Source: Phreatobacter stygius (GTDB lineage: Bacteria > Pseudomonadota > Alphaproteobacteria > Rhizobiales > Phreatobacteraceae). Taken from it: a stretch of 64,000 nucleotides of DNA. Shown here piece by piece: positions 30,619 through 46,265 of this stretch (its first letter is position 1; each line of letters starts with the position of its first letter). The translations under genes were made by a program, and so were the position numbers. The DNA lies in NCBI RefSeq assembly GCF_005144885.1, contig NZ_CP039690.1, positions 7,180,873 through 7,244,872 on the forward strand, given 5' to 3'. The notes beneath the pieces were generated by a model. The model had not been told where the DNA came from and ran no database searches. It worked only from the letters and a program-made list of their open reading frames with translations.

Positions 30619-30664
30619 TGGCGATCCCGGCAGGGCTCGAACCTGCGACCAACAGCTTAGAAGG
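30619..30664. other. attL (46-bp direct repeat of tRNA-Arg 3' part)
   Basis: Identical to 46220-46265, covering the tRNA-Arg from the CCA end through the T arm and across the anticodon loop. It diverges right after, so this copy is not a tRNA gene: the D arm and 5' acceptor strand are missing. Confidence 0.93.
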
Positions 30665-30691
30665 ACCGCGCTCACTCAACGATTTCAACGC

Positions 30692-30701
30692 CGTTACGAC
30701 A
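30692..30701 (-). other. Integrase arm-type site, left, inverted
   Basis: CGTTACGACA, the reverse complement of TGTCGTAACG. Part of a set with 30748-30757, 46140-46149 and 46153-46162; the flanking bases AAA also match the right-end copy. Confidence 0.65.
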
Positions 30702-30747
30702 AAACAGCGCATAGGCAGACCATTGATACGACTTATGAATTCGAGCT

Positions 30748-30757
30748 TGTCGTAACG
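30748..30757 (+). other. Integrase arm-type site, left, direct
   Basis: TGTCGTAACG, second left-end copy of the arm-site motif, 84 nt inside attL. Confidence 0.65.
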
Positions 30758-30826
30758 GCCGGGCGCCCATCCCCGCGCCTCGGGAGTCTGTGTTGGCGAT
30801 CCGCGATCTCGACCCCGACGCCGCCT

Positions 30827-31600
30827 GGCCTTCGGGTCCTTCCCGGGGCCCCCACCCCATCGCGGCTCATAGAGGCCCGGCCTCTCGGTAGCGACGCCCA
30901 TCAAAAATCCGGGTTTACAGGCGACAGGGGCGCAGGCGCCGGCGGCAGGCCGGCGCGGGTACTGAGCTTTTTCCGGCGCTCCGTCGCCCGTGGCCGTGGT
31001 TCCGCTCGGCCGTGGCCGGAGACGCCCAATGCGCTTGGCCTTCGGGTCCTTCCCGGGGCCCCCACCCCATCGCGGCTCATAGAGGCCCGGCCTCTCGGTA
31101 GCGACGCCCATCAAAAATCCGGGTTTACAGGCGACAGGGGCGCAGGCGCCGGCGGCAGGCCGGCGCGGGTACTGAGCTTTTTCCGGCGCTCCGTCGCCCG
31201 TGGCCGTGGTTCCGCTCGGCCGTGGCCGGAGACGCCCAATGCGCTTGGCCCTCGGGTCCTTCCCGGGGGCCCCACCCCATCGCGGCTCATAGAGGCCCGG
31301 CCTCTCGGTAGCGACGCCTATCAAAAATCCGGGTTTACAGGCGACAGGGGCGCCGGCGCCGGCGGCAGGCCGGCGCGGGTATTGAGCTTTTTCCGGCGAT
31401 CCGTCGCCCGTCGCCGTGGTTCCGCTCGGCCGTGGCCGGAGACGCCCAATGCGCTTGGTCGGGTCCTTCCCGGGGGCCCCACCCCATCGCGGCTCATAGA
31501 GGCCCGGCCTCTCGGTAGCGACGCCCATCAAAAATCCGGGTTTACAGGCGACAGGGGCGCAGGCGCCGGCGGCAGGCCGGCGCGGGTACTGAGCTTTTTC
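30827..31600 (-). repeat. Tandem array of 210-bp repeats (3.7 copies)
   Basis: Units begin at 30827, 31037, 31247 and 31454 (the last is about 147 nt). The first two periods are exactly 210 bp and the third 207 bp, so all are multiples of 3. The minus strand stays open across all copies, giving an Arg/Pro/Gly-rich 70-residue repeat (KPGFLMGVATERPGLYEPRW in each). That frame has no credible start, since its upstream part is antisense to hicB, so I treat this as repeat DNA. Each unit contains GGTTTACAG, the iteron-like motif found further right. Confidence 0.8.
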
Positions 31601-31638
31601 GGCCCCGCAAGTCGAACATACTGCCTGCCGCGCGGCGG

Positions 31639-31920
31639 TCATCTGTCGTCCGGCAAATCCGTTTCGATCGCGGCGATTGAAATGGCTTCGGCGATATCCT
31701 CGGCAAGGTCGGGATCGGCCGTGATCGCCGCCATGTCGCGGATCATAGGCAAGGGATCGCCGTTGGCCGACATGGCCTCGATATGGCTCGCCAGCGTGGC
31801 CGCTCCGCGGCGTAGCGCCTCGTCTACGGTGGTGCCGCCGGAAACGCAGCCCCGAAAATCGGGGAACGAGATGCCATAGGCCCCCTCGACACCGTGGATC
31901 AGTGCGACGATTGCGGACAC
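31639..31920 (-). CDS. Orphan HicB-family antitoxin-like protein
   Basis: 93 residues from GTG 31920, with AAAGGAGG 5 nt upstream. The N-terminal HicB fold is clear: SAIVALIHGVEGAYGISFPDFRGCVSGGTTVDEALRRGAATLASHIEAM, followed by LPMIRDMAAI and an acidic tail instead of a DNA-binding domain. HicB normally neutralises the HicA mRNA interferase encoded next to it. No hicA is visible on either side; the region upstream (31921-32530) is non-coding. It may be an orphan or anti-toxin-like regulator. Confidence 0.8.
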   Translation of the reverse strand: MSAIVALIHGVEGAYGISFPDFRGCVSGGTTVDEALRRGAATLASHIEAMSANGDPLPMIRDMAAITADPDLAEDIAEAISIAAIETDLPDDR

Positions 31921-32149
31921 ACAGGCCTCCTTTGCTCGTCTTCGATCGGCCAATGATCATCTCAAGGCCGGGCCAATAGTCCAGATGCCCGACGAGAGAC
32001 AGCCCGAAGGCATGCCCTTATCCGGCCGCCGGCAGCGGGCCGGCGTGGCTGCGTCGTTTCGCGGCGCGTGACCTAGCCGCCTCCGCCGCGAGCTTATTGC
32101 GGCTTGAGCAAAGCCCGGGAAATCGGAAGTTCGACCTTCGAAAATTTGA

Positions 32150-32187
32150 CCTGACACACCTGACACTATGGCCTGGGCACCTGACAC
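32150..32187. repeat. Three CCTGACAC direct repeats
   Basis: Copies at 32150-32157, 32159-32166 and 32180-32187, starts 9 and 21 bp apart, in the gene-free stretch left of the iteron clusters. Confidence 0.5.
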
Positions 32188-33177: not shown

Positions 33178-33552
33178 CTAAACTAGCTTGGGCCTCGTCC
33201 TTCGTTTGCCGCTCGAAGGCGCGGCTTTCGCTTTCCGACGCTCTTCCATCATCTGCGTAAAACCGACGGTCACATGACTGGAGTTCGTGCCCGAAGAACG
33301 GAGGGTTCCTGACCTTATAGGCGGACTGTCGCGCCGCGTCTGACGCTCGAGGAACTCCAGAACATCCGCCGGCGTGAATTCGCGGCGCGGATGGACATCG
33401 CCAAACCCCTTTTGGATGTAGCGGATATTGCCCGCGCGGGCGTGCGCGAGCAGTGTCTTCGTCGACATGCGCAGCGCCGGCGCGAGCTCGCTCGCTGATA
33501 CCGATACGCGACCTTCGAACAGTTCCGCGAGCACCGGCGGAAGTTCTATCAT
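33178..33552 (-). CDS. Helix-turn-helix DNA-binding protein of the element
   Basis: 124 residues. The middle part SVSASELAPALRMSTKTLLAHARAGNIRYIQKGFGDVHPRREFTPADVLEFLERQ has the plan of MerR/excisionase-type winged helices (HTH, wing with basic residues, ADVLEFL helix) at about residues 17-72; the C-terminal 50 residues are basic and likely flexible. Start ATG 33552 with GGGAAGAT upstream. Its position next to the iteron region suggests a role in replication control or excision, but that is inference. Confidence 0.65.
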   Translation of the reverse strand: MIELPPVLAELFEGRVSVSASELAPALRMSTKTLLAHARAGNIRYIQKGFGDVHPRREFTPADVLEFLERQTRRDSPPIRSGTLRSSGTNSSHVTVGFTQMMEERRKAKAAPSSGKRRTRPKLV

Positions 33553-33663
33553 GGCAAGGTATCTTCCCGCGTGATTTGGCTGTTCCTTCATACCTGATCG
33601 AATCTGCCAACAGGAAGCCTTGCCCCTGAATTTCCGCCTTACCGAAGCTGGCCTCGTCTTGGT

Positions 33664-34737
33664 CTAGCGACCAAGACCGGAGCCTTCCTGTCCCTGGGCT
33701 GCCATCGTGGAACCCGCGGCCATGCGTTCAAGGCCGCCCGCGGCATTCAGGTCGCGGGCGATGTTGCGCAGGATGTGGGCCATAACCCCGGGGTCTACCG
33801 CACACCATGTGCGCTCGATCGCGCCTGCCACGGCAGACGCCTTAACCGCGATTTCGCGCAACGTGTGAGCGGGGATCTCTCCAAGCGTGCCGAAGATCGT
33901 CTCCTCGAGGGCCTTCGCCTTTTCCCATGTGCCGTTCTCGTCATCGGCCAGCGCTGCACAGGCATCGCGCACATGGATGGCGGCGGCGGCCAAGCCATCG
34001 ACTGTCACGGTGCTTTGCCCTCGCTCCCTCGCGAACCTCTTCGGCGGAACCGTCGCGGCGCTGACAGTCTGGGCCGAAGCCACGGGGCTCGCGCTCTCTT
34101 GGTCAAGTCGCGCCAGCCGATTGAGAATGCCAGCAAGCACGTTGCGGCTGCGCGGGCCGCGCGCCGGATTGAAGCCGATGTCCATGACATTGTTGGCATC
34201 GCCATCGCCGTCCCAATTGATGGAAACGCGGGCCTGTATCGCCATCGTCTGGACGTTCGCTGCAGGCTGTTCGGCAATCAGGTCCACGAGCATGGCGATG
34301 GCGCTGTGGAGCCATTCCACCGCGTCGCTAACCCCGGTGTTCTGCGGATCGATGGGCTCTCCCGGCACTCGGCCGCAGAGCGCGAGGAGGCTGTTCCAAT
34401 CGTCGAATGCCTGTCCCAATTGCATGACGATATCGCCTGGCCGCGCACGGGGCGGCGAAACGTTGTCGGAAACTCCTGCCATCGTCGGATCGATGTCGGT
34501 GATGGCGTGGGTAGCTCCGTCAACGGCAACGCGGAGGGTTTCGAACAGCGTGGTGATCTTTGCGCGGTCCTGAATCGCATTCGCTCGGTTGGTGATATCC
34601 GCGAATTGATCATGCGCGCGGATAATTCCGTCGCGGATTTCATGAAGCGAGGCAAGGCGCGCCGCTTGCAAGGCGGTGCGCTGTGGGGATGGGGCGGTCA
34701 CCGGGCGGGCGGAAGCTTGGAAGTTATGCGTCGTCAT
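33664..34737 (-). CDS. Element protein of unknown function
   Basis: 357 residues, no recognised domain. A helical N-terminal third (QRTALQAARLASLHEIRDGIIRAHDQFADITNRANAI) is followed by a middle region with MDIGFNPARGPRSRNVLAGILNRLARLD, an Ala/Thr-rich linker near 230, and a helical C-terminal part (ETIFGTLGEIPAHTLREIAVKASAVAGAIERTW). ATG 34737 with AAGGGAA upstream. In an apparent operon with the gene at 34766 (28-nt gap), divergent from the XRE gene. Confidence 0.6.
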   Translation of the reverse strand: MTTHNFQASARPVTAPSPQRTALQAARLASLHEIRDGIIRAHDQFADITNRANAIQDRAKITTLFETLRVAVDGATHAITDIDPTMAGVSDNVSPPRARPGDIVMQLGQAFDDWNSLLALCGRVPGEPIDPQNTGVSDAVEWLHSAIAMLVDLIAEQPAANVQTMAIQARVSINWDGDGDANNVMDIGFNPARGPRSRNVLAGILNRLARLDQESASPVASAQTVSAATVPPKRFARERGQSTVTVDGLAAAAIHVRDACAALADDENGTWEKAKALEETIFGTLGEIPAHTLREIAVKASAVAGAIERTWCAVDPGVMAHILRNIARDLNAAGGLERMAAGSTMAAQGQEGSGLGR

Positions 34738-34765
34738 GGCGTTCCCTTGGGGATTTGGGGGTGGA

Positions 34766-35107
34766 TCAGGCGGCCAAGCCGCGCTCGGCGGCGAGCAGGT
34801 TGCGAAGGCCCACGCGCCGGCCGAAGTCGCGGCTGGCGTAGAGGCGGGCATAGGCATGGCTCGATGCGCCGCGCCTGGCCTGAGCCGCGGCGCGCATCTC
34901 CTCGAGGCGCAATGCGTGGGCGAGCTTCTCGACCACCTCGTCGCGGCTCTCGGCGACCCGTACTCCGATGAACTGGCGCAACACAGCGAGCGGCGTCACC
35001 GGGCGTGCCTTCGCCTCCGCCCATGCCATGCGCAGCGCTTCGGCGAAGGCCTCACGTGAGAACGGGCGCGGGCCGGCGCCGCGGTAGAGGCTCCAGGCCC
35101 GGACCAT
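34766..35107 (-). CDS. Element protein of unknown function
   Basis: 113 residues, basic and helical. PFSREAFAEALRMAWAEAKARPVTPL at about 15-40 and MRAAAQARRGASSHAYARLYASRD are the most regular stretches. The AEALRMAWAEAK motif occurs in small proteins of rhizobial islands. ATG 35107. First gene of the leftward unit opposite the XRE regulator. Confidence 0.55.
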   Translation of the reverse strand: MVRAWSLYRGAGPRPFSREAFAEALRMAWAEAKARPVTPLAVLRQFIGVRVAESRDEVVEKLAHALRLEEMRAAAQARRGASSHAYARLYASRDFGRRVGLRNLLAAERGLAA

Positions 35108-35161: not shown

Positions 35162-35192
35162 GTTGATATGAATTCACTCTATCGATGTCAAC
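35162..35192. promoter_or_regulatory. Inverted repeat in the divergent promoter region of the XRE gene
   Basis: GTTGATAT (35162-35169) and ATGTCAAC (35185-35192), 7 of 8 arm bases complementary, in an AT-rich 110-bp space between the divergent genes starting at 35107 and 35218. Candidate operator for the XRE protein. Confidence 0.4.
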
Positions 35193-35217
35193 ATCAAAAG
35201 CTCAAGGTAATATCAAA

Positions 35218-35466
35218 ATGAGCCTTCTGGCCTCGCAATGCCGGGCTGCCCGTGCTCTCTTGGCGTGGTCGCAAGACGATCTTGTCGGCGCGTCCAAGGT
35301 GACCAAGTCGACGATTGCCAATTTCGAGGCCGGCAAACGTAACCCCTACGAGCGGACGCTCGATGATTTGCGGGCGGCGTTCGAAGCCGCCGGAGTCGAG
35401 TTCATCGGCGCGGGGACCGCGAGCCCTGAAGGCGGCGCCGGCGTGCGACTGAAGGGGGGCGCGTGA
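35218..35466 (+). CDS. XRE-family helix-turn-helix regulator
   Basis: 82 residues. The HTH domain spans about 4-62: QCRAARALLAWSQDDLVGAS, KVTKSTIANFEAGKRNPYERTL. The Cro/CI-type core is followed by DLRAAFEAAGVEFIG, the C-terminal tail usual for short rhizobial XRE regulators. AAGGTAAT lies upstream of ATG 35218; an upstream start at 35185 is possible. Faces the gene at 35107 across an operator-like repeat, so it probably controls the lysogeny-like state of the element. Confidence 0.88.
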   Translation: MSLLASQCRAARALLAWSQDDLVGASKVTKSTIANFEAGKRNPYERTLDDLRAAFEAAGVEFIGAGTASPEGGAGVRLKGGA

Positions 35467-35765
35467 TGACGTGGAACTATCGCATGGTCCGTCGTGCGGA
35501 CGGGTCGGGGTTCGCCTTATTCGAGGTCTTTTACAACGATGCCGGGGGCGCGACGGCAATGTCGGCGCGGCCTGCGACACTCGATGTGACGGCAGAAGAA
35601 GGGCCAGAGCGCCTTATCCGCGAGATCGAACTTGCGCTTGAAGATGCGCGGACGCTCGGCGTGATCGATGAGGCCGCGATCCTGGCGAATGCCAAGGCGC
35701 GCGATGCAGACGGAACGGGCGTGCAGCTGGATAGCGGCACCGGAGGGGCTCATGGAACGGAGTGA
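35466..35765 (+). CDS. Small element protein, unknown function
   Basis: 99 residues. TWNYRMVRRADGSGFALFEVFYNDAGG and EEGPERLIREIELALEDARTLGVIDEAAI suggest a small mixed fold of the kind seen in phage and plasmid accessory proteins of rhizobia. The ATG overlaps the XRE stop (TGATG), so the two are coupled. Confidence 0.6.
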   Translation: MTWNYRMVRRADGSGFALFEVFYNDAGGATAMSARPATLDVTAEEGPERLIREIELALEDARTLGVIDEAAILANAKARDADGTGVQLDSGTGGAHGTE

Positions 35766-37296
35766 GCGCCCGATCGTCCGGGTCGAGCCAGGCGGCGCTC
35801 TGTCCTTGGAGTTTCCGGGCCCAAACGCATATCCAGCCTATGGACGCTCATTTGGGCGCTTCTTGCGGCAATGTACTCGGCTTGGCGAACGGCTCATCCA
35901 GTCAGAGTTGACCAATCGTAGCGTTGAGCGCCTGCCGCCTTCGCTCGCCATATTCCACGAAGATAACGCCCAGAAGGCGCTGTCCGGTGAGCTCGCGCTT
36001 CTGCGGCGCGGGTGGCTCGATATCTGGGAGTTCCAGAGGCTCCACCATGACACTTGGCTCGAGACGCTGGGGTCGTCGCGTGCGCTATCCGCTGTCCGAT
36101 CAATATTTCCAGACGCCGTCCGCCCATCGGCCGAAACTTTCCCCGACTGGCGGGCCTTGACTGTCTTGCCAAAGCTGCCCGCTGCGCTGGCTGTGAACCG
36201 CCTCGCCGCAGGGGCGATGCTTGCTTACCGCTTTGAGACTGACGGCAAGATTGGCGAGCTCGTGTCGCGCCAGAAATGGGCGGCGATCGAGGAGGGCACG
36301 CTCGTTGCCGCAGACAAGCTGTTCACCCGGAATCGAATTCCGGCTGAAGGTGGTGAAGTGAATTTCATGGTGGCTTCGGAGAAAATTGCTTCAGAGATCA
36401 TAGGCCATGGTGTGTGGGTGACTTCCCCTCTCGAGGCTGTTTGCGCCGACTTGCCACTCCCTGCCGATTTCCTTTGGGACTGCACACTCAAAGATGCCTA
36501 CCGGCGTCTCGTTCTCTCGGATCTTGATTTGGTCTCGGCGATCGTCGGCGCGGAAGTCATGAACAATGGTGGCCTGCGCCAGTGGGGCGGCGAAATATTC
36601 GGGACCGATGACTTTGATGCACCCGTGAGGTTCGGTGGACCGGCGGCCGATCTGTTGCGGCTACTTCGGGCTCCAACAAGGCGCCCGCCCGATCTCTCTG
36701 TGCCCCTTGGCGAACGTGAATGTATCGATTTCCTGAAGTCCTTCGTGGGCTCGACGAACGAGTATGACTCAGGCGATGCGTGGATCGAGATATTCGCCAA
36801 TCGACATTCTATGTTCTTCAGGTGCCTCGGCGCCGGGAAACTAAGGAGCCACGGCCGTGCCTCCGGGGCGACATCCGGGATAGGAATCGACAAAGCGATC
36901 TGGGAGGAAGAGCGAGCCACATTTGATCTCGTCACGGGTGATCTTTCGACCGGTGATGGCCTGACGTGGCGCTCCATTACTGTGCAACGGGGAAACGAGC
37001 CTTCAACGGGCGAGATGGGTACGGTCGCGCCTCCGTATGCGAATAGCGCGGCGCCGAGCGCCGGCAAGCGGCTCAATCAGCATGATCGAATGGTCGCCAT
37101 ACTGGAAAACTACTACCGGGATGACCCACTAGACAGGAAGGGCCCCGAAAAGATACGCGATATGCTTGGCCCTCGCGGCCGCAACGATCCTGATTTCGTC
37201 GCGATGAGCCCGGTCGATAGCGTCATAGATGAGGCGCTTAGTGCACATCGTGATAGAATAGACCCCAATAGAAAAACCCGCCGCGGCGACTTATAG
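35752..37296 (+). CDS. Element protein of unknown function
   Basis: 514 residues, overlapping the preceding gene by 14 nt, GGAGGGG upstream of ATG 35752. No known domain. Blocks of interest are a hydrophobic but not transmembrane start, RFLRQCTRLGERLIQSELTNRSVERLPPS, FEREEDG-like acid patches, and a charged C-terminus (LENYYRDDPLDRKGPEKIRDMLG). Codon use is less G+C-rich than the flanking chromosome. Third gene of the XRE operon, directly before the tail module. Possible roles include a structural, immunity or defence protein; the sequence does not decide. Confidence 0.55.
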   Translation: MERSERPIVRVEPGGALSLEFPGPNAYPAYGRSFGRFLRQCTRLGERLIQSELTNRSVERLPPSLAIFHEDNAQKALSGELALLRRGWLDIWEFQRLHHDTWLETLGSSRALSAVRSIFPDAVRPSAETFPDWRALTVLPKLPAALAVNRLAAGAMLAYRFETDGKIGELVSRQKWAAIEEGTLVAADKLFTRNRIPAEGGEVNFMVASEKIASEIIGHGVWVTSPLEAVCADLPLPADFLWDCTLKDAYRRLVLSDLDLVSAIVGAEVMNNGGLRQWGGEIFGTDDFDAPVRFGGPAADLLRLLRAPTRRPPDLSVPLGERECIDFLKSFVGSTNEYDSGDAWIEIFANRHSMFFRCLGAGKLRSHGRASGATSGIGIDKAIWEEERATFDLVTGDLSTGDGLTWRSITVQRGNEPSTGEMGTVAPPYANSAAPSAGKRLNQHDRMVAILENYYRDDPLDRKGPEKIRDMLGPRGRNDPDFVAMSPVDSVIDEALSAHRDRIDPNRKTRRGDL

Positions 37297-37318
37297 GGCC
37301 AAGTTCGCGATGGACATT

Positions 37319-37368
37319 GGGCGAATTCGCCCATGATTTTGGGCGTATTCGCCCATGCATTGCGTAGC
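37319..37368 (+). promoter_or_regulatory. Double-operator promoter module before the tail genes
   Basis: Two palindromic sites, GGGCGAATTCGCCC (37319-37332) and GGGCGTATTCGCCC (37341-37354), start 22 bp apart, so they lie on the same face of the helix. They are followed by ATGCATTGCGTAGC (37355-37368). TTGGGC within the second site with 17-nt spacing to GCGTAG may be -35/-10. An equivalent module precedes the AlpA gene at 40694. Confidence 0.65.
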
Positions 37369-37882: not shown

Positions 37883-40341
37883 TGGGCAAGATTATCGAAG
37901 CGACCGCGATTATCTCCGCGGAAGATCGCACCGCCGGTGCGATCGATAGCGTTGTAAGGCGGCTCAATACGCTGAACGCTGCAATGAAAAGTGCGCTGAA
38001 GGTCGATGGCGCATCTGGCTCGCAAAGCTTTGGCCGGCAGGCGGCTGACGTCGACAAAATGTCAAACGCATTGCGCCGCCAGGCCACCGAGGTTGACCGC
38101 CTGGCGGCTTCGTACCGGGCGCTCGAATCGGCCCGCGCAGGTCGTGGCGACAGCGCTGGGCGCACCTCGGCGATTGATGCAGAAATCGCCAAGCTTCGCG
38201 AGCTTCAGAGGGCCCGACAACAGGCAGCGCAGGTGCCTGCATCGGTGCCGTCGTCCGGCCGCATCCCACAGCGGTTGCCCCCGCACCTGCCGCCCCCTCA
38301 TCGCCTGCCGGCACCTGGCCTGCCAATGGGCGGGCCGTCGATCGCGCCCGGATCGACGACCGTCAGGAATGCGGCGCGTGAAGGCTTCGACGAGGCCGCT
38401 ACGCCTGCTCAAGTTGAAACTCTGATGCGCGCGAGGGGGGATATTTCTGAGGACGACATAAAGAAGGCGCGCGCGCTCTCGAACAGGATGTCGGGCGAGA
38501 TCCGGTCATTTTCATCGGCGCAACACTTTCAAGCCATCCATTCAGCCATGGCCGTTTTTGGCGACTTGAACAGGGCGATGGAGGCGGCGCCGGAGTTGCA
38601 GCGCGCGAATGCCTTCATCGAAGCCCTGAAAGATCGATACGAGTCCTTGCGGCCGTTCTCGGGCGGTACGTCAACCAAGGATTTCGCTCGCACTTTTGAC
38701 ATCATGGGTGCCACGGACAACGCCGCCAGAATGCGAGTTCTGAGTGGCGCCATTATTCGGGGCGTGCAGTCGTCTTCTGGCGACGTGACGCCTACCGATT
38801 ATCTCGGCACTCTGAAGTACGCCCGGAGTCATCGGTACGGGTACTCTAACGATTTTCTTCAAAACTACCTGCCGGGCATCATCGGAGATGCGAAGTTTCG
38901 CGGCGGCGGCGCTACGTCTGCCGGTACAGGGCTCGCGGCTCTGGGTGATCAATTTTTCAATCTCCGGGCGCCCGATCGCGCAAAGCTCGAAATGGAGCGA
39001 CTTGGGCTCATCGAAGGTTCCTTCGATCGCGCGCGCCCGGACGGTCGCATCCGAGGCCGCGGCACCGCACGAGTGAGGGGCGCCGATGTTCTGGCGCAAA
39101 ATCCGCAGCAGTGGGCCACCCAATTTCTACTGCCGCTGATCGAGCCCCAAGGCGGGCCGCTCAGTGGCGACGAAGCCCAAGACGCACCGCGTGTGAACGA
39201 GGCGATTGGACGCATCACCGGTAATCGGGTCGCGGCCGATTTCCTGTCGTCGATGATTCTGCAGCGCGGTGAGCGCGAGCGCGACGCACGAATTGCCCGA
39301 GGGATGCCTGGCATCGAGAGCTTGCCGACGCTCGAACAGGGGCCCGTTGCCTCACTGCAAAATTTGAGCGCGGCGACCAAGGATTTTCTGGGATCGATTT
39401 CCGAACCGCTCGTCCAGCCCGCCATATCGGGCATGCGGCTGCTCGGCGAAGCGCTTCGCAAAATGTCACAGTGGAATAGGGAGAATCCTGAAGCCGCGGC
39501 GACATTGGGGACGACGGCAACGATTGGCGGGGCGATCGCAAGCACGGTCGCGGGCCGCGCGGCTTGGCAGTGGTGGCAAGGGGGACGCAACGTCCCGACA
39601 ATCGGCCCCACGCAGCCGCCTGGCGGACCCTTGCCGCCGAATTCGCCGCGCTTTGCCCCCGGTCCGATTACCGTCCCGCCGGCGGCCTCTGGCGGTTCGC
39701 TCATTGGCAATCTTGCGCGCGGCGCCTTTCGCCTCGCTGGGCCTGCCATGGTCGCCTACACAATCGCGGACACGGCACGGAATGTCGCCCGCGGCGATGT
39801 GGCGACCGAGGGAGCGAAGACAAACTTCCGGGCCGATGAGGCGATGGCCAGGCTACGCTTGCTCCGGAACGAGTCGAATCTGCTTTCCGTCGCAAACCCA
39901 GGGGCGGCCGGTTTTGAAGATCGCGTTTCGCGCGCCCGTGCGGCACTCGATGAAATCGATTCTAGCGTTGCTCGAACGCGGCAGCGACCGGACCAGACAC
40001 CGGTTTCGCGCCAAGGCCTCGACAACGCGGCGGCCTTGGCTGGCGCGATCCGGGACATCCTGAATCGGATCGAACTGCCGGGCAATCGCAGCAAGGCGGG
40101 TGACGGCCAGACGCAAGGAACCCTGCAGCCGGCCGCACCTGTCAGCGTCACAGGCAACGTCGAGCTTCGCCAGCAGCATCAGCATCAATTCGATGTGCGC
40201 TTCAACACGGAGATGCTGCGTGGCGAGGTTCGGTCGATCGTGCGCGAAGAGGTTTCGCGCATCCCGTTGAACAGCAATGGCCCCGGTTCGACAGGGGGCT
40301 CGATGACTGAAGCCGCACCGGGCGGCAACACCGGACAGTAG
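37882..40341 (+). CDS. Phage tail tape-measure protein
   Basis: 819 residues. N-terminal helical region (IIEATAIISAEDRTAGAIDSVVRRLNTLNAAMKSAL) and heptad-like segment EVDRLAASYRALESARAG typical of tape measures. A Pro-rich linker lies at about 120-160; the long middle part is helical; hydrophobic stretches TLGTTATIGGAIASTVAGRAAW and GSLIGNLARGAFRLAGPAMVAYTIADTA follow; the C-terminus VELRQQHQHQFDVRFNTEMLRGEVRSIVREEVSRI also occurs in rhizobial tail proteins. Tape measures set tail length, here roughly 120 nm by the usual 1.5 Å per residue rule. ATG 37882 overlaps the extension stop. Confidence 0.85.
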   Translation: MGKIIEATAIISAEDRTAGAIDSVVRRLNTLNAAMKSALKVDGASGSQSFGRQAADVDKMSNALRRQATEVDRLAASYRALESARAGRGDSAGRTSAIDAEIAKLRELQRARQQAAQVPASVPSSGRIPQRLPPHLPPPHRLPAPGLPMGGPSIAPGSTTVRNAAREGFDEAATPAQVETLMRARGDISEDDIKKARALSNRMSGEIRSFSSAQHFQAIHSAMAVFGDLNRAMEAAPELQRANAFIEALKDRYESLRPFSGGTSTKDFARTFDIMGATDNAARMRVLSGAIIRGVQSSSGDVTPTDYLGTLKYARSHRYGYSNDFLQNYLPGIIGDAKFRGGGATSAGTGLAALGDQFFNLRAPDRAKLEMERLGLIEGSFDRARPDGRIRGRGTARVRGADVLAQNPQQWATQFLLPLIEPQGGPLSGDEAQDAPRVNEAIGRITGNRVAADFLSSMILQRGERERDARIARGMPGIESLPTLEQGPVASLQNLSAATKDFLGSISEPLVQPAISGMRLLGEALRKMSQWNRENPEAAATLGTTATIGGAIASTVAGRAAWQWWQGGRNVPTIGPTQPPGGPLPPNSPRFAPGPITVPPAASGGSLIGNLARGAFRLAGPAMVAYTIADTARNVARGDVATEGAKTNFRADEAMARLRLLRNESNLLSVANPGAAGFEDRVSRARAALDEIDSSVARTRQRPDQTPVSRQGLDNAAALAGAIRDILNRIELPGNRSKAGDGQTQGTLQPAAPVSVTGNVELRQQHQHQFDVRFNTEMLRGEVRSIVREEVSRIPLNSNGPGSTGGSMTEAAPGGNTGQ

Positions 40342-40352
40342 GAGGCAAGCGG

Positions 40353-40682
40353 ATGTACGAGATACAGGAAATCAAGGAAGCTCTTGCCTACCTCAAGGTG
40401 AGGGTCGCGGTCAGTGAGGCCGTTCTTGACGCAGTCATTCAGATAGCCGGCCGTGTCGTCATCGATCCCGCGAGCCGCGCCGCATTCGCTGGCGCCATCT
40501 TTGACGAGCTCCGGTTCGTACCGGGCGGAGATATTGACCCCGCGACGCGAATGGCCTCTGAAGCTCTGGCCTTGCAATGCCACAGCGCCGCCAAAGCCTG
40601 GCGCGATCGGGTTGAATCGCTCCTCACAGAGGTAGTCTGTGAGGGCGTCCAGGCGGCAAGCGGCGGCGATCGTCCGAACTGA
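40353..40682 (+). CDS. Element protein after the tape measure, unknown
   Basis: 109 residues, helical: EIKEALAYLKVRVAVSEAVLDAVIQIAGRVV and FAGAIFDELRFVPG. It follows the tape-measure gene by 11 nt with AGGAGG-like AAGCGG upstream, so it probably belongs to the tail operon. No family recognised. Confidence 0.6.
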   Translation: MYEIQEIKEALAYLKVRVAVSEAVLDAVIQIAGRVVIDPASRAAFAGAIFDELRFVPGGDIDPATRMASEALALQCHSAAKAWRDRVESLLTEVVCEGVQAASGGDRPN

Positions 40683-40693
40683 AATCGGCTTTT

Positions 40694-40743
40694 GGGCGAT
40701 TTGACCCGCGAGTTTGGGCGATCTCGTCCATGCATTGCGTAGC
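40694..40743 (+). promoter_or_regulatory. Double-operator promoter module before the replication genes
   Basis: GGGCGATTTGACCC (40694-40707) and GGGCGATCTCGTCC (40716-40729), again exactly 22 bp apart, then ATGCATTGCGTAGC (40730-40743), which is identical to the sequence at 37355. Same TTGGGC to GCGTAG spacing. Matches the module before the tail genes. Confidence 0.65.
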
Positions 40744-40800: not shown

Positions 40801-41028
40801 ATGGCATCCGATGAATGGCTCTCGGCCCGGCAAGTCTCTGAACGCTATGCCATAAGAAAGAGTTACCTCGACAAATTGAGAGTTCGCGGCGGCGGTCCGG
40901 TCTATTGCAAACTCGGCCCGAAGCTCGTGCGCTATTACGCCGCCGACATTGACGCTTGGTTCGCGTCCAGTCGGCGCGCAAATACTTCCTCCGTTACTTC
41001 TGAGGCGCAAATCGCGGGTGCCGCCTGA
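40801..41028 (+). CDS. AlpA-like helix-turn-helix protein
   Basis: 75 residues. WLSARQVSERYAIRKSYLDKLRVRGGGPVYCKLGPKLVRYYAADIDAWFASSR is the AlpA/excisionase winged-HTH plan. AlpA proteins activate integrase or early operons in P4-like satellites and phages. GGGAGAAAG precedes the ATG. First gene of the AlpA-DUF927 operon, behind the second double-operator module. Confidence 0.88.
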   Translation: MASDEWLSARQVSERYAIRKSYLDKLRVRGGGPVYCKLGPKLVRYYAADIDAWFASSRRANTSSVTSEAQIAGAA

Positions 41029-41504
41029 TGGCTCGTCGACCGGTTCTTGATGCCCGGACACGGGCGGCGATCCTGCTGGAAATGCGCATGTGCGTCTCAG
41101 GCGCACCGCGGGCCCTTTCGGCGCATATGACGCGTGTCGAACGGCTGTTTGCCGGTTTCGAACGCGAAGCGCTGATGGCGCTCGCCGGCGCAGAGGAATT
41201 CGATGTGCGGCCGGACGGCGCCGCGCGGTTCATGGTGCCGGTGTCTCGCAGTTTTCGCAATGCTCGGCCGTGGCCGGTGGGGTCCGAGGCCTGGTTTGAA
41301 TGGCACCCGAACGCTGATCGATGGGCCTCCGAATTCGCCGCAGGTCGCGGACTCCTCGCGGGCGCGTCCCATATCCACCGCATTCGGCACGCCGGCACTC
41401 TCGCCACCCTGGGCGAGGGTGAGGGGCCGATCGCCAGCTATCACCGTCTCGCCGCGTTCTGGGCCGTGGCAGTGCTTGCCCAGGCCGGGATGCGCCCTGC
41501 ATGA
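41028..41504 (+). CDS. Element protein of unknown function
   Basis: 158 residues. ATG overlaps the AlpA stop (TGATG) and its end overlaps the next gene by 4 nt, so it belongs to the same operon. LSAHMTRVERLFAGFEREALMAL and FEWHPNADRWASEFAAGRGLLAGASHIH are its most regular blocks; the latter may be a metal-binding or hydrolase-like motif but is not diagnostic. Possibly an auxiliary replication protein. Confidence 0.6.
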   Translation: MARRPVLDARTRAAILLEMRMCVSGAPRALSAHMTRVERLFAGFEREALMALAGAEEFDVRPDGAARFMVPVSRSFRNARPWPVGSEAWFEWHPNADRWASEFAAGRGLLAGASHIHRIRHAGTLATLGEGEGPIASYHRLAAFWAVAVLAQAGMRPA

Positions 41505-43477
41505 CCAAGCGCATCAAGGACAGGAGCGGCTCGGGGTCGGTTCCGCCCAAAGGCGACGGCGAGAGCCCGGCACACGACCGGCTCGCCGAGATTGCCGCTC
41601 TGATCGAAGCCGACGACCCTTCTGATGAAGGCCTCCCCGTCACATCCTCGCCTTCGCTCGCGGTCGGGGCCTTCGATGCGGCCGAAGGCGCGACGAAGAC
41701 AGATGGGGCGCCTTCGGCCGCGCCAGTGGCCTCCCCGGGCCCATCCAGCGCCTTGGGAACCGGGCTGCGCAAGGATGATGTCGTCTGGCCATGGGGCTTT
41801 GCAATGCGTGCCGATGGCCTGTACTGGGCGCCGCCTACCACTCCTCAGGAATCGCAGCGGATCTCCGCGCCCTTCGAAGTGCGCGGCCTCGGTCGATCAG
41901 AGGACGGTGAGCATTGGTGCACCGTGATCCGCTTCGCGGACCCCGATGGCGGTTCACATGATATCGTGATTGGCCATGCCGATCTTGCCGGTGACGGCGC
42001 CGAGGTCCGGCGGCGGTGCTCTGATGGCGGCCTTTGGATCAGCACCGCGCGCGGGGCGCGGGAGAGGTTCGCGGCGGCGCTCGCCGGGTGCTCGACGGGC
42101 CGGCGCGTGCTTCTCGCCTCTCGCCTTGGCTGGCACCAGGCAGGGGATCTGTTCGTTTTGCCCGATGGCTCGATCCGTCTCGACGGTCGCGACGCCGTCC
42201 ATTTCGAGGGCGCGCGCGGCACCCATTTTGGACAGAGCGGCGCGCTCGATTCCTGGAAGCAGGAGGTCGCCGCCCTCGCTGTGGGGCAGGACCGGCTTTT
42301 GCTCTCGCTCGGGGTCAGCCTGTCTGGCCCGGTGCTGGCCCCGCTGGGTCTAGACGGCGGCGGCGTGCACCTCTTCGGATCGTCGAGTGTCGGCAAGACG
42401 TCCGCCTTGCTGATGGGCGGGTCCGTTTGGGGCGGCGGCGGCCCACTCGGCTTCGGGCAACTCTGGCGCATCACAGCCAATGCGCAGGAGGGCATTGCCG
42501 CGGCGCATAACGATTGCCTTCTCGCGCTTGATGAGGTTGGCACCTGCCCGCCGGCGGAGCTCGAAGCCGCGAGCTATGTGCTCGCCGGCGGTCAGGGCAA
42601 AGCCCGCATGCGATCGGATGCGACCCTGAAGCCCCGCCAGCGCTGGCGCATTGCGATCTTGTCGACGGGCGAGGTCACGCTCAGGTCAAGGATCGCCGAG
42701 GGGCGCGCGCAAGTGCGCGGCAAGGCGGGGCAAGAGGCGCGCATCATCGACCTGCCGGCCGATGCGGAGAAGGGCTTCGGGCTGTTCGATCACGCCGGCC
42801 CGGATGGCGATCCAGCCTCGCTCTCCAAGCGCATCAAGGGCGCCACGTCCAAGCACTACGGAACCGCAGGCCCGGCCTTTATCCGTGCTTTCCTCGAGGA
42901 TCGCGAACCGGCGACGAAGGCCTTGGTGGGGCTGCTTGCCAAGTTCAAGCGCGAGCATGTGCCTCAGAGCGCGGATGGCCAGGTGGGCCGGGTCGCGGAG
43001 CGGTTCGCTGTCGCGGCGGCGGCCGGCGAATTGGCTATATCGTTTGGCGTCCTGCCATTCGATGCAGGAGCCATGGAGGGCGCCTGCGGTCGGCTGCTCG
43101 CTGTTTGGATCAAGCGCCGCGGCGGGGTCGGCTCGTCTGAGGCGCGTGAGGCCGTCAGCAATGTTCGGCGCTTCCTGCAGGCACATCACATGGCTCGCTT
43201 CGCGCGCGATGACAGGGATGAGTCGTGGCGTGCGCAAAACCTTGCCGGCTCCAAGACCGCTGCCGGTGAAGACCAAGTCTTCTATTTTTTCGATAGTGGC
43301 TGGGCGGAGGCCATCGGCGGTATCGATCCGCGCACGGCTGCCGATGCCCTGGCCGCGGCGGGCTTCCTGATCCGAGGATCTGACGGGCGCCGCAAGTGCC
43401 AAAGGCGCGTCAACGGGGTCCTACAGCGCGTCTACGGGGTCAAGGCGACCATCTTCGAGGGGGAAGAGGATGCTTGA
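41501..43477 (+). CDS. DUF927 helicase-like replication protein
   Basis: 658 residues. The DUF927 region (about 95-400) carries Walker A GSSSVGKTS at 293-301 and Walker B CLLALDEVG at 339-347, LAGGQGKARMRSDATLKPRQRWRIAILSTGEVTLRSRI after it. DUF927 proteins are superfamily helicase/primase-associated proteins of phages, plasmids and islands, thought to drive replication of the element. The N-terminal 90 residues are Ser/Pro/Glu-rich and disordered. Operon with the AlpA gene. Confidence 0.88.
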   Translation: MTKRIKDRSGSGSVPPKGDGESPAHDRLAEIAALIEADDPSDEGLPVTSSPSLAVGAFDAAEGATKTDGAPSAAPVASPGPSSALGTGLRKDDVVWPWGFAMRADGLYWAPPTTPQESQRISAPFEVRGLGRSEDGEHWCTVIRFADPDGGSHDIVIGHADLAGDGAEVRRRCSDGGLWISTARGARERFAAALAGCSTGRRVLLASRLGWHQAGDLFVLPDGSIRLDGRDAVHFEGARGTHFGQSGALDSWKQEVAALAVGQDRLLLSLGVSLSGPVLAPLGLDGGGVHLFGSSSVGKTSALLMGGSVWGGGGPLGFGQLWRITANAQEGIAAAHNDCLLALDEVGTCPPAELEAASYVLAGGQGKARMRSDATLKPRQRWRIAILSTGEVTLRSRIAEGRAQVRGKAGQEARIIDLPADAEKGFGLFDHAGPDGDPASLSKRIKGATSKHYGTAGPAFIRAFLEDREPATKALVGLLAKFKREHVPQSADGQVGRVAERFAVAAAAGELAISFGVLPFDAGAMEGACGRLLAVWIKRRGGVGSSEAREAVSNVRRFLQAHHMARFARDDRDESWRAQNLAGSKTAAGEDQVFYFFDSGWAEAIGGIDPRTAADALAAAGFLIRGSDGRRKCQRRVNGVLQRVYGVKATIFEGEEDA

Positions 43478-43736
43478 CGCCATTCCGTCCGCAACCGAGA
43501 CGGCAGCCCTTCTCGACACGCTCGCGAGGCGTCGGGGCGTCGATCGGAGATCGACGCCGGCGACGGATGACGAAGCCTTCGCCGAACGCGCGGCGATCAT
43601 GGAATTCGACGGCGGCCTGCCGCGTACGCTCGCCGAGCGGTTCGCCCGCGCGCTCGTCGCGCTTGGCCCGGCTCCGAATCCGACAGCCATCGCCGACATC
43701 GACAGGCAGATTCTGGATGGGGAGCAACGGCGATGA
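43470..43736 (+). CDS. Small element protein, unknown
   Basis: 88 residues, overlapping the DUF927 gene by 8 nt, with GAGGGGGAAGAGG before the ATG. FAERAAIMEFDGGLPRTLAERFARALVAL is a helical segment of the type seen in small proteins next to DUF927 genes. No known activity. Confidence 0.65.
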   Translation: MLDAIPSATETAALLDTLARRRGVDRRSTPATDDEAFAERAAIMEFDGGLPRTLAERFARALVALGPAPNPTAIADIDRQILDGEQRR

Positions 43737-43924: not shown

Positions 43925-44479
43925 TCAGTGCGTGTCCGCTTGCAGGGCGCGGTAGACCGACGCCCGGGCGATGCCGAGGCGCTTCGCGATGTCGCTGGGC
44001 CCGATCTTTTCCTCGGAATGAAGCCGCTTGATCTCGGCGGCATCGATCGAAGGCGGGCGCCCCTTGTAGACACCCGCGGCCTTGGCCTTGGCGATACCTT
44101 CGGCCTGACGCTCTTTCCGGAGATTAGTTTCGAATTCGGCGAAGACGCCGAGCATGTCGAGAAAGGCCTTGCCGGCGGCCGTCGATGTGTCGATCGGCTG
44201 CTCGGTCGCCCGAAGTGCCACGCCGCGGCGGCGCAGATCGCGAACGATATCCTGAAGATCGCCGATCGAACGGGCGAGGCGGTCGATGCGGGTCACCATC
44301 AGCGTGTCGCCTTCGCGAAGGAAGGCGAGCATGGTCGTCAGTTCCTCGCGACCGGTGCGCGTCGTGCCCGACCGCTTCTCCTCACGAACGACAGAGCATC
44401 CGGCGGCGCGCAATGCGGCAACCTGGATTTCGCAGTTCTGATCCGAAGTGCTGACGCGGGCATATCCGTAAATGGCCAT
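43925..44479 (-). CDS. Serine recombinase (resolvase/invertase family)
   Basis: 184 residues. Catalytic Ser10 in GYARVSTSDQN, then the conserved GTTRTGREELTTMLAFLREGD, VTRIDRLARSIGDLQDIV (Arg-rich catalytic pocket), EFETNLRKERQAEGI and a C-terminal HTH (EIKRLHSEEKIGPSDIAKRLGIARASVYRAL). Size and architecture fit Tn3-type resolvases or DNA invertases. It is oriented opposite to its neighbours, starts 165 nt before the excisionase-like gene, and its upstream region holds TGTCTCA repeats. Confidence 0.92.
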   Translation of the reverse strand: MAIYGYARVSTSDQNCEIQVAALRAAGCSVVREEKRSGTTRTGREELTTMLAFLREGDTLMVTRIDRLARSIGDLQDIVRDLRRRGVALRATEQPIDTSTAAGKAFLDMLGVFAEFETNLRKERQAEGIAKAKAAGVYKGRPPSIDAAEIKRLHSEEKIGPSDIAKRLGIARASVYRALQADTH

Positions 44480-44526
44480 GGCCGAACCCCTTCCGTCTCT
44501 TTTGGGTCTAGACCATTCCGTGATAA

Positions 44527-44611
44527 TGTCTCAGAATTCCAAAGTCAACCCTATTGCGACGCACTTTCTGTCTCATACGAGTGTCGCACCGGGGTTTACC
44601 CGAATGAGACA
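44527..44611. other. Candidate res site of the serine recombinase
   Basis: TGTCTCA at 44527-44533 and 44569-44575, its inverse TGAGACA at 44605-44611, plus TGCGAC (44555-44560) facing GTCGCA (44583-44588). Repeats in direct and inverted orientation within 85 bp directly upstream of the recombinase start are typical of res sites. Confidence 0.45.
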
Positions 44612-44643
44612 CGCCGTACGCCGCAGAAGATGGCGAGGTGGTC

Positions 44644-44883
44644 ATGACCTCGGTCTTCCCAATGTGGCCGGCGGTACTGACCAAAGAGCACGCCGCGACG
44701 TATCTCGGGTATGAGACCCCGCGCCACATGCTCAGGGACGTGAGGAGGGGCCGCGCCCCTGGCCCTACGCTCATGCGCGGTCGGACGGCCGTTTGGGTGC
44801 GCATCGAAATTGACAAGTGGCTTGCCGCAACAACCGAACCGGACTCAAATAATGAGACGTCGGACCTCGCCGCCCTCATCTGA
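44644..44883 (+). CDS. AlpA/excisionase-like protein
   Basis: 79 residues. VLTKEHAATYLGYETPRHMLRDVRRGRAPGPTLMRGRTAVWVRIEIDKWLA is a winged-HTH of the AlpA/Xis kind. ATG 44644 has GAGGTGG upstream. Located directly before, and overlapping, the integrase gene, the usual place of an excisionase. Confidence 0.82.
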   Translation: MTSVFPMWPAVLTKEHAATYLGYETPRHMLRDVRRGRAPGPTLMRGRTAVWVRIEIDKWLAATTEPDSNNETSDLAALI

Positions 44884-46132
44884 GCCTGCTGTGCCAAAGA
44901 AAACACTGCTGAACCTGGGCAAGTATGTCCGGCCGGTGCGCAAAAAGGGCCGGCTTGTAGGCTATTATTTCAGCCTGCCTGGCTGGGTCTACAAGATCGC
45001 GCCGGATGACCCGCGAGGTCCGTGCCCGGTTCGGGGGCAGGCGCTTGGGCTGGATCCGGACATCGCGCGCACGAAAGGCTCGGAGCTTCGTGAGCGGTTC
45101 GACACATGGCGCCTCTACGACGGCGAGCCGCAGACCCAAGCAAACACGGCTCCGCGCCGCGGGTCATTCGACTGGCTTGCGGCCGAGTACAAGGCCGACA
45201 AGAGGTTCAAGGGGCTCGGCGCGAAGACGCGGAAGAACCACGGCAACAACCTCGCCCTCGTTTCGCGATATTTGCTTAAGAACGGGCAGCGTTTCGGCGA
45301 TCAGCTCATCTCGGTGATCACACCCAAGGCCGTCGATGCGTTATTCGACGCTTTGATCAAGAAGGGCGACGGCGAGCGCCGGACATCGATCAACAATGCC
45401 ATGCGGACCTGCCGACGCGCATGGAACGTCGCACACCGCTGCGAACCCTCGGTCGTTCCGAAGGCCAATCCCTTCGCGAAGATGGGCCTGAAGGATGTCT
45501 ACGATGAGACCACGCCAGCGACCTATGAGCAGTTGCTTGCGTTCATGGCGACCGCCGACGCGAATGACCGCGCTTCGTTGAGCGCCGCTGCTCTGAACGC
45601 TTGGGAGTGGCAACAGCGCGAGGTTGACATCTTCGGGCGCTTCCTGGTGACCCACTACCGACCACCGGCCCGGCCAGACATGGTCAGAATTGTCCACTAC
45701 AAAAACAAGGAGCGGAAAGAGGTCTGGCAGCCGCTATTCGACCCGGCGACCGGTACGCCTCTCTTTCCGGAATTGCAGGCGCGCCTCGACAAGCTCACCG
45801 CCGGACGTGACGTCGGCCATGCCTTGTTACGTGATTGGCCCGATGCGACAGCTGGCCGGCCGCTTCCCTGGCCGGCGCCGAAGGGCGGCCTGGACTTCAT
45901 GATCAAAGAGGTTCGCCGGATCTGCAAACTTGCAGATCTGCCGGAGGAGATCACCTTCGCCTCATTCCGGCACGGCGGCTACACCGAGGGCGGCGACGCC
46001 GAACTGACCGATTCAGAGTTCCGGGCGACCAGCGGCAAGGACGCCACCACCCTGCCCCTCTATGTGCATCGAACCGTCAAACAAATCGCCACGGCGCAGA
46101 GGAAGCGGCGGGCTGTGCGTGAACAAAACTAG
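44852..46132 (+). CDS. int: Tyrosine recombinase (site-specific integrase)
   Basis: 426 residues. The N-terminal region KKTLLNLGKYVRPVRKKGRLVGYYFSLPGWVYKI is the arm-binding-type domain; the core-binding domain follows (KTRKNHGNNLALVSRYLLKNG). In the catalytic domain Arg of EWQQREVDIF and Tyr of LPLYVHRT are present, but the HxxR-type box reads FASFRHGG (Ala for the first His) and the second His position is Lys (SGKDATTLP). These changes are typical of this rhizobial island family. ATG 44852 lies inside the upstream gene; GTG 44891 is an alternative start. It ends 87 nt before attR. Confidence 0.92.
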   Translation: MRRRTSPPSSEPAVPKKTLLNLGKYVRPVRKKGRLVGYYFSLPGWVYKIAPDDPRGPCPVRGQALGLDPDIARTKGSELRERFDTWRLYDGEPQTQANTAPRRGSFDWLAAEYKADKRFKGLGAKTRKNHGNNLALVSRYLLKNGQRFGDQLISVITPKAVDALFDALIKKGDGERRTSINNAMRTCRRAWNVAHRCEPSVVPKANPFAKMGLKDVYDETTPATYEQLLAFMATADANDRASLSAAALNAWEWQQREVDIFGRFLVTHYRPPARPDMVRIVHYKNKERKEVWQPLFDPATGTPLFPELQARLDKLTAGRDVGHALLRDWPDATAGRPLPWPAPKGGLDFMIKEVRRICKLADLPEEITFASFRHGGYTEGGDAELTDSEFRATSGKDATTLPLYVHRTVKQIATAQRKRRAVREQN

Positions 46133-46139
46133 ATTCTTT

Positions 46140-46149
46140 TGTCGTAACG
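46140..46149 (+). other. Integrase arm-type site, right, first
   Basis: TGTCGTAACG preceded by TTT, as in the inverted left site at 30692. Confidence 0.65.
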
Positions 46150-46152
46150 CTG

Positions 46153-46162
46153 TGTCGTAACG
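46153..46162 (+). other. Integrase arm-type site, right, second
   Basis: TGTCGTAACG, 13 bp after the first right-end copy, in direct orientation. Confidence 0.65.
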
Positions 46163-46219
46163 CCCGCGCGCCTGAGAGGGCGACGAATCCGCAAACCCAT
46201 ACAAACGCTGGAAAGTGAA

Positions 46220-46265
46220 TGGCGATCCCGGCAGGGCTCGAACCTGCGACCAACAGCTTAGAAGG
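46220..46265. other. attR (46-bp direct repeat within tRNA-Arg)
   Basis: Same 46 bases as 30619-30664, lying inside the intact tRNA-Arg gene from its CCA end to just past the anticodon. The crossover is presumably within the anticodon loop/stem region. Confidence 0.93.

Follow-up and report, generated by a model that had tools for sequence, protein, structure and literature searches.

An integrative element of Phreatobacter stygius pairing a tail assembly chaperone with a tape measure protein: a candidate phage satellite

According to PMC12987554, the well characterised satellites of double-stranded DNA phages all hijack phage tails, and rebuilding of the tail with a tape measure of the satellite's own is first known from the PLEs of Vibrio cholerae. 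PLEs encode a tape measure protein (TMP), a tail assembly chaperone (TAC) and the baseplate hub BhuB, forming chimeric tails. PLE11 particles contain the PLE TMP while the phage TMP is absent, their tails are about 10 nm shorter, and deletion of tmp lowers PLE transduction by 96-99.9%; tmp genes are also noted in further Vibrio satellites and in cf-PICIs (PMC12987554). Here we describe an element of 15.6 kb from Phreatobacter stygius, lying in a stretch of 64,000 nucleotides of contig NZ_CP039690.1 (the window, whose positions are used throughout). TAC and TMP are the only virion genes recognised in it, and we argue that it is probably a phage satellite or a satellite-like island.

The element is enclosed by exact 46-bp att repeats, the right copy of which is the 3′ end of a tRNA-Arg(TCT) gene. 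A first-pass annotation, made from the sequence alone, had proposed these repeats, the tRNA integration and the size, and all three are confirmed.

30619..30664, no strand: attL, exact 46-bp copy of the tRNA-Arg 3′ end (exact repeat)
46220..46265, no strand: attR, exact 46 bp, inside tRNA-Arg(TCT) (exact repeat)
46220..46296, minus strand: tRNA-Arg(TCT), integration target (ARAGORN; Rfam tRNA)

The tail genes form one operon (37425-40682).

37425..37811, plus strand: TAC (homolog 5′ of a TMP at locus L013; phrog_24302; phrog_166)
37706..37712, plus strand: -1 frameshift heptamer T TTT TTC, in frameshift phase (same heptamer and phase in L013)
37882..40341, plus strand: TMP, 819 aa (phrog_28; Alfacinha1 GpT; satellite TMPs)
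40353..40682, plus strand: small protein 3′ of the TMP, starting 11 bp after it (no Pfam or PHROG match)

In L013, a cluster of phage-tail genes in another genome where sheath- and baseplate-type genes were recognised by eye, the gene immediately before the TMP is homologous to the TAC (2.6e-12). The TAC also matches phrog_24302 (1.5e-12), a family without assigned function, and the tail family phrog_166 (0.0023); its structure model, built from a two-row alignment, has a pLDDT of 43. Slippage on the heptamer would yield an extended product of about 150 aa, with its last codon reaching 37879; the -1 extensions of the window and L013 TACs measure 56 and 62 residues. The TGA of the -1 frame (37880-37882) overlaps the TMP start codon at 37882 in a TGATG. 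The TMP matches phrog_28, ‘tail length tape measure’ (3.6e-5, residues 488-609), and the annotated GpT of Acidovorax phage Alfacinha1 (2e-5, over 41% of the protein), with NCBIfam TIGR01760 below cut-off (0.086). It is identified as a tape measure both by homology to known TMPs and by its place after the TAC. Its two best matches, the TMPs of genomes G027 (2.7e-25) and G030 (2e-24), both belong to att-bounded elements. The TAC and TMP frames are open, and the broken or truncated tail genes that mark a cryptic prophage were not found in the window element. The homologies, the phased heptamer and the stop-start overlap bear out the tail module of the first-pass annotation, namely a TAC with its frameshift product and a TMP.

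That annotation saw no other virion or lysis gene, and we agree: among 19 window open reading frames (ORFs) scanned against Pfam and PHROGs, TAC and TMP were the only virion families matched in PHROGs, and no family of terminase, portal, capsid, tube, sheath, baseplate or lysis proteins was found. A match of the AlpA-type protein to the terminase small subunit (phrog_57, E 0.091) was taken as noise. No baseplate family or baseplate-like homolog that could correspond to BhuB appeared among the ORFs searched. A comparison of the element's 98 ORFs of at least 60 aa with 218 proteins from ten phage-type loci again gave TAC and TMP as the only virion-type matches; the negatives of this comparison are weak, because it overlooked small terminase (TerS), scaffold-like and large terminase (TerL) genes that PHROGs caught in two related elements.

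A first TMP search of the order matched 8 of 297 genomes, the host's own included; one match, in G236 (1.6e-4; L015), had no phage-type neighbours by eye and was taken as chance. The survey proper used a profile built on seven TMPs; as six of these come from loci in which no full tail was recognised, it leans towards such loci. At E 1e-10 there were matches in 16 genomes out of 397 for the order and in 2 out of 385 for the class, the own genome being counted in both. All 16 loci of the order were inspected, and five are bounded by exact att repeats and carry an open TMP; in none was a complete virion set recognised.

Window element: 46-bp att, 15.6 kb, tRNA-Arg(TCT)
G027 element: 45-bp att, 11.0 kb, tRNA-Arg(TCT)
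G249 element: 46-bp att, 12.7 kb, tRNA-Arg(TCT)
G165 element: 47-bp att, 11.2 kb, tRNA-Lys
G030 element: 56-bp att, 23.4 kb, tRNA-Lys

Their TMPs measure 568-900 aa, and the two stops listed for that of G027 are its terminal TAG-TGA. PHROG scans, which covered most ORFs of the sisters, gave a TerL (7e-27), a phrog_906 primase and a TAC-like gene beside the TMP in G249, and a TerS (1.8e-29), a scaffold-like gene (9.5e-13) and a phrog_1156 replication gene beside the TMP in G030. In the latter, the scaffold-like gene, TMP and TerS are clustered (L010:7592-12327), so that capsid, tail and packaging are each represented by a single gene. The G165 TMP is related to a phage TMP, that of G266 (5.5e-38). 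A TAC is recognised in the window element, weakly in G249, and in G027 by its C-terminal part, the gene being truncated. At L009:10886-11365, an AlpA frame continues into the -1 extension frame of a TAC whose N-terminal half is missing. Sister elements, for which the first-pass annotation had suggested looking, thus exist, four of them att-bounded with a TMP, but the gene set is not constant, since a TAC is not recognised in all and two have TerL or TerS.

The ORFs of at least 60 aa of the five bounded elements, of the G207 locus and of one unit of plasmid pMaqPC2 (described below) were also compared with the 218 phage-type proteins. A phage-type TMP was matched by all seven and a TAC-type gene by five (window, G207, G249, pMaqPC2 and the C-terminal part in G027); no other virion-type protein was. 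The remaining matches concerned XRE, AlpA, integrase and one 535-aa radical-SAM-type ORF of G030. A census of ten TAC-type genes, counted without a chance control, found a phased heptamer in four of five satellite-type TACs (window, G207, G027 and pMaqPC2, not G249), in three of four phage-type ones (not G077), and not in the TAC-type gene of the mixed locus G282.

As for the other loci of the survey, four contain a TMP but lack proven borders, namely G012, G367, G190 (where the contig is 11.6 kb long) and G207 (where a tRNA-Leu precedes the integrase); four have full tails by eye (G077, G266, G272, G274), two are unclear (G137, G171), and one is mixed, G282 (L041:332-9799), with TerS, TerL, portal, neck, TAC-type gene and TMP. 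The G282 locus gave no tube, sheath or baseplate match in 10 ORFs; it lies near a tRNA-Pro, and the contig end cuts its left side. The class-search locus G727 has a full tail by eye. Several candidates were rejected as sisters: L014 (G012), where the att repeats (11447, 16359) enclose an integrase and not the TMP; L039 (G367), where neither integrase (by eye) nor att repeat was seen in 35 kb; and L040, L042, L037, L046 and L013, with sheath- or baseplate-type genes nearby (translations judged by eye, without hidden Markov models). In G012 (L014:391-11495), the orphan TMP has on one side a CRISPR-like repeat array and a Cas9-like gene (by eye), and on the other the 5-kb att-bounded integrase element. 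A genome-contig collection yielded no close relative of the window TMP and one relative of the G030 TMP, the G190 copy.

This last pair allows selection to be measured. The G030 and G190 TMPs are 91% identical over 749 aa, with dN/dS 0.055 at dS 1.14 (Nei-Gojobori), a value near saturation and from a single pair in which the G190 element has undefined borders; this TMP lineage is under strong purifying selection. In a maximum-likelihood tree of 16 TMPs, which leaves out two prophage-type TMPs of the own genome, satellite TMPs interleave with phage TMPs and form no single clade. Well supported branches force at least two changes of satellite/phage label, a pattern that either two captures or one capture with a later return would produce. 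Of the 13 inner branches, nine are unsupported (‘open’), the rows are very divergent, and satellite labels cluster no more strongly than in shuffles. Because of this interleaving and of the low dN/dS in the sister pair, the family is poorly explained by erosion of prophages.

The element also carries a replication operon (40801-43736), followed by a resolvase gene.

40801..41028, plus strand: AlpA-type regulator/excisionase (phrog_66, 2.8e-6; chosen start, longest ORF from 40714)
41028..41504, plus strand: protein of the replication operon, overlapping both neighbours (no family match)
41501..43477, plus strand: DUF927 primase/helicase (Pfam 2.9e-52; phrog_1139 primase 5.9e-67)
43470..43736, plus strand: small protein 3′ of DUF927 (homolog after DUF927 in pMaqPC2, phmmer 1.1e-6)
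43925..44479, minus strand: serine resolvase/invertase (Pfam Resolvase 1.6e-40)

The DUF927 protein is 48-49% identical to plasmid proteins of Methylobacterium aquaticum and M. nodulans. Its relatives in the phage collection amount to seven records: the short PT1028 (15.6 kb), phiAH14b (16.8 kb) and vB_Pae_U10 (10.2 kb), one 2.2-kb fragment and three longer phages. The 38-kb circular plasmid pMaqPC2 of M. aquaticum BG2 has a DUF927 protein matching the window copy at 2.9e-157, and also encodes the small DUF927-downstream gene, a resolvase, an XRE regulator and ParA. On the same plasmid we find an annotated ‘phage tail assembly protein’ with a phased slippery heptamer and a 1325-aa TMP. The latter is 23% identical to the window TMP over 43% of it, and matches 16 phage records, 12 of which are annotated as tape measure at the match. 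In the plasmid record, a unit of 19.4 kb is present almost twice (18.6 kb at 99.96% identity), a near-dimer that may be either biology or an assembly artefact. By contrast with pMaqPC2, plasmid pMNOD05, whose DUF927 protein is just as close, and three more DUF927 plasmids show no annotated tail gene in gene tables that are incomplete. Since these plasmids carry it, DUF927 alone is no mark of a satellite, and we dropped it as a proof.

The tail and replication operons are preceded by copies of the same motif.

37317..37368, plus strand: upstream motif, copy 1, two palindromic sites (TTGGGCGNATTCGCCCA) 22 bp apart, then CATTGCGTAGC
40692..40743, plus strand: upstream motif, copy 2, 42 of 52 bp identical to copy 1

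Copy 1 ends 56 bp before the TAC start, and copy 2, which is more degenerate, 57 bp before the AlpA ATG at 40801. A 19-bp core of the motif has three exact matches in the 7.35-Mb genome, every one inside the element; with one mismatch there are nine matches, all outside the element, against two for a reversed control pattern. Because the motif is common to both, the TAC-TMP and AlpA-DUF927 operons look like one regulon, for which the motif would have a promoter function.

Inward from the integrase, the gene order is an AlpA-like helix-turn-helix (HTH) gene, the resolvase, the DUF927 operon, the TAC-TMP operon, a 524-aa protein, and an XRE-type regulator with a small phage-type gene.

44638..44883, plus strand: AlpA-like HTH protein 5′ of the integrase (phrog_597, phrog_25900 and phrog_66 at 0.001-0.003)
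44876..46132, plus strand: divergent tyrosine-recombinase-like integrase (aligned motifs; relatives adjoin tRNA genes)

Tyrosine recombinases share the catalytic residues R-K-HxxR-H-Y. The protein at 44876..46132 has relatives in five other genomes among 199, the four that were fetched all adjoin a tRNA gene, and R248, K276, R365 and Y396 are invariant across five aligned rows. From these family motifs and its position, it is predicted to be the integrase. The first-pass call stands on this ground, though not on database families: no match was obtained in Pfam, PHROGs or NCBIfam, nor anything meaningful among PDB sequences (best 0.43). At 30356-30546, immediately beyond attL, there is what remains of the C-terminus of an integrase similar to that of the element, which means that this tRNA was probably occupied earlier by another, older element.

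The left end of the element consists of leftward genes, HicB-like and uncharacterised, and a tandem array; the genes between it and the tail operon are listed with it.

30822..31600, no strand: tandem array, period 210 bp, 3.7 copies
31639..31953, minus strand: HicB-like antitoxin-type protein (Pfam HicB_lk_antitox 1.6e-12)
33178..33591, minus strand: putative regulator (weak Pfam HTH_17 match, 0.011, below cut-off)
33664..34743, minus strand: 359-aa protein, function unassigned (nothing significant; NCBIfam TIGR01760 0.018, below cut-off)
34766..35107, minus strand: small protein (weak Pfam Phage_Gp111 match, 0.0014, below cut-off)
35185..35466, plus strand: XRE-type repressor-like regulator (Pfam HTH_31 1e-5, slightly below cut-off)
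35463..35765, plus strand: phage-type small protein (phrog_21321, 6.4e-11)
35722..37296, plus strand: 524-aa protein without family match (Pfam, PHROGs, NCBIfam and other scans)

The HicB-like gene adjoins the 210-bp array; HicA was not noticed, though no search was aimed at it. The stretch 32457-33035 contains two long inverted repeats, one nested in the other (62 nt with 71% and 39 nt with 77%), which are a possible origin or packaging site. The 524-aa protein, modelled without an alignment, has a pLDDT of 35 and no predictable fold; in 249 genomes, it matched besides itself only two weak stretches of 70 residues with internal stops. The AlpA, XRE and DUF927 genes of the first-pass gene list are upheld by the matches given above, and the list lacked the resolvase, the HicB-like gene, the tandem repeat and the 524-aa protein.

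What kind of element is this? The probable answer seems to us to be a phage satellite of integrative type, or a satellite-like island, bringing its own tail core into play via a helper. This was already the preference of the first-pass annotation, and the incomplete virion set, the att repeats and the element's own replication gene still fit it best. The element would replicate by its own DUF927 primase and, on activation, express TAC and TMP under the same control as the replication operon. A helper with a contractile tail would supply the head as well as tube, sheath and baseplate. In place of the helper TMP, the tail would receive the satellite TMP, loaded with the satellite's TAC in short and -1 forms, and satellite-carrying particles would have chimeric tails with a length set by the satellite TMP. 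In this way, the satellite may also set TMP-dependent steps such as assembly, DNA ejection and resistance to TMP-directed inhibitors. We infer the helper dependence, the packaging route, the chimeric tails with their benefit and the change of tail length from the anatomy of the element, which matches the TAC-TMP part of the PLE system without BhuB. For this reason, we favour tail takeover over interference, plasmid-like cargo and erosion.

Several observations weigh against this interpretation. No terminase, scaffold or packaging site is recognised in the window element. The sisters were found via a TMP search, which makes the constancy of the TMP partly one of construction; the TMP of G165 has no PHROG match and was recognised by phmmer only, and a TAC is seen in three of the five bounded elements, none being recognised in G165 or G030. 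The ‘matched promoters’ of the first-pass annotation survive as a matched motif, at neither copy of which a sigma-70-type promoter was scored. The first palindrome of copy 1 also scores as terminator-like, such sites being no commoner here than in shuffled sequence, and the motif was not found upstream of the TAC/TMP operons in the sister elements searched. DUF927 occurs on ordinary plasmids too, and the H of the SGHK box is missing from the window integrase. Scans of IMG/VR found no relative of the window, G030 and G027 TMPs or of the window DUF927 protein. Nor was a helper prophage identified in the own genome, where the first-pass annotation had suggested looking for one with a matching tail. 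TMP matches at 3.36 and 3.47 Mb and a TerL match at 5.67 Mb mark three prophage-type regions, none of which could be tied to the element: the two TMPs show no phmmer relation to the other TMPs at 1e-3, and the longest exact words shared with the element (17, 15 and 19 bp) are about that of a control stretch (17 bp).

The alternative that survives best, though we hold it to be unlikely, is interference with tail assembly, in which TMP and TAC, expressed from the element as a satellite or an integrative plasmid, would act as decoys poisoning the tails of invading phages and protecting the host, with no part in particles of the element's own. Tail-assembly defences are indeed described on satellites and prophages, Tai in PMC11364771 and Rta of PLE11 in PMC12987554; moreover, no packaging gene is recognised in the element and the DUF927 module is found on plasmids as well. 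Yet Rta, as that source presents it, is a separate 80-aa protein and not a TMP. A full-length 819-aa TMP, the TAC frameshift and the stop-start overlap better suit a working assembly pair, and PADLOC defence models gave no match with 10 window proteins, TAC and TMP not being among these.

The element might otherwise be an integrative plasmid-like island of DUF927 type, with TAC-TMP as accessory cargo of another role and no parasitism of phages. This we consider improbable. The closeness of the Methylobacterium plasmid proteins and the lack of an annotated TMP or TAC on pMNOD05 speak for it, while the upstream motif common to the TMP and replication operons does not. Neither do G249 and G030, which pair the TMP with TerL, or with TerS and a scaffold-like gene, alongside other replication genes (phrog_906 and phrog_1156).

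Erosion would make of the element a contractile-tail prophage that has lost its head and most tail genes, TAC-TMP being left by chance. It can draw on a graded series from G282 (TerS to TMP) through G249 (TerL, TAC-like gene, TMP) to loci with TMP only, on the missing integrase residue, the older integrase remnant outside attL and the truncated TAC of G027, as well as on the blindness of a TMP-based search to remnants without a TMP. PMC11080155 adds that incomplete prophages are common in Hyphomicrobiales and enriched for integrase and tail genes. It is nevertheless quite improbable, given an open TMP inside exact att repeats in all five bounded elements, the purifying selection in one sister pair, the specific motif common to the window TMP and replication operons and a plasmid with the same gene combination; what the first-pass annotation had named as refuting its satellite interpretation, full-length prophages as closest relatives with deletion junctions or stops in the tail genes of this copy, was not observed, as the nearest TMPs come from att-bounded elements in which no full virion set was recognised and the frames are open.

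Returning to the satellite interpretation, one may wonder, tentatively and with rather more doubt than belief, whether satellites of Hyphomicrobiales, integrated and plasmid-borne alike, have converged on the TMP as their core virion gene, with terminase and scaffold optional, and use it to claim helper tails and set their length. If so, TMPs would have been swapped repeatedly from phages, often together with the TAC, and part of the ‘incomplete prophages’ of the order would be such satellites. PMC11080155 reports that incomplete prophages have few head genes and, where the host is not animal-associated, few terminase genes as well, and reads them as decay or domestication. Some small ‘incomplete prophages’ may instead be satellites under selection, and what a satellite gains from its own tape measure becomes a testable question. 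In open-licence PMC, a scope outside which subscription papers and preprints fall, we found no paper on TMP-bearing satellites of Alphaproteobacteria.

Among known systems, a phage tail module of Peduoviridae type (Alfacinha1 gp25-gp27) likewise places a GpT-homologous TMP just 3′ of tail assembly genes, but includes sheath and tube and belongs to a phage genome. P4-like satellites are marked by psu, delta, sid and the P2 cos; no such gene name occurs among our PHROG matches, although no search was aimed at P4 genes. PICIs are marked by an AlpA and primase replication module with an integrase, and by TerS or capsid and packaging genes. The former marks are found in the element and the latter are not, a PICI-type TerS being absent from the window element and present in the G030 sister. 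The cf-PICIs form their own capsids, and differ in this from the element, which has no recognisable capsid or packaging gene. They share with it a predicted tmp (PMC12987554, in the legend of Extended Data Fig. 10). Plasmid pMaqPC2 has the DUF927 gene with its downstream small gene, resolvase, XRE, TAC with heptamer and TMP in common with the element, but is circular, encodes ParA and has a longer (1325 aa), distant TMP. Staphylococcus phage PT1028, which we take to be SaPIpT1028, a PICI, equals the element in size (15.6 kb) and has a DUF927-type protein (26.8% over 40%, 7e-8). It differs by its Gram-positive host, and SaPIpT1028 is known for capsid redirection (PMC12409344).

The PLEs remain the closest parallel. 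Like the element, PLE1, PLE4 and PLE11 have their own TMP and TAC and lack the rest of the tail, and PLE TMPs are far from their phage counterparts (20% identity reported in PMC12987554), as is the case here. In contrast to PLEs, which by the same account encode BhuB, parasitise the lytic phage ICP1 and live in a gammaproteobacterial host, the elements described here have Hyphomicrobiales hosts, no recognised BhuB and no linked helper; the two were compared by description. Since it has been demonstrated in Vibrio PLEs, the idea of a satellite with its own TMP is no longer unprecedented, and by analogy the element is an alphaproteobacterial variant of that strategy rather than a new category. 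A similar TAC-TMP set in another bacterial class, both chromosomal and plasmid-borne, makes tail takeover look recurrent and suggests that several distantly related elements use phage parts for tails of their own design.

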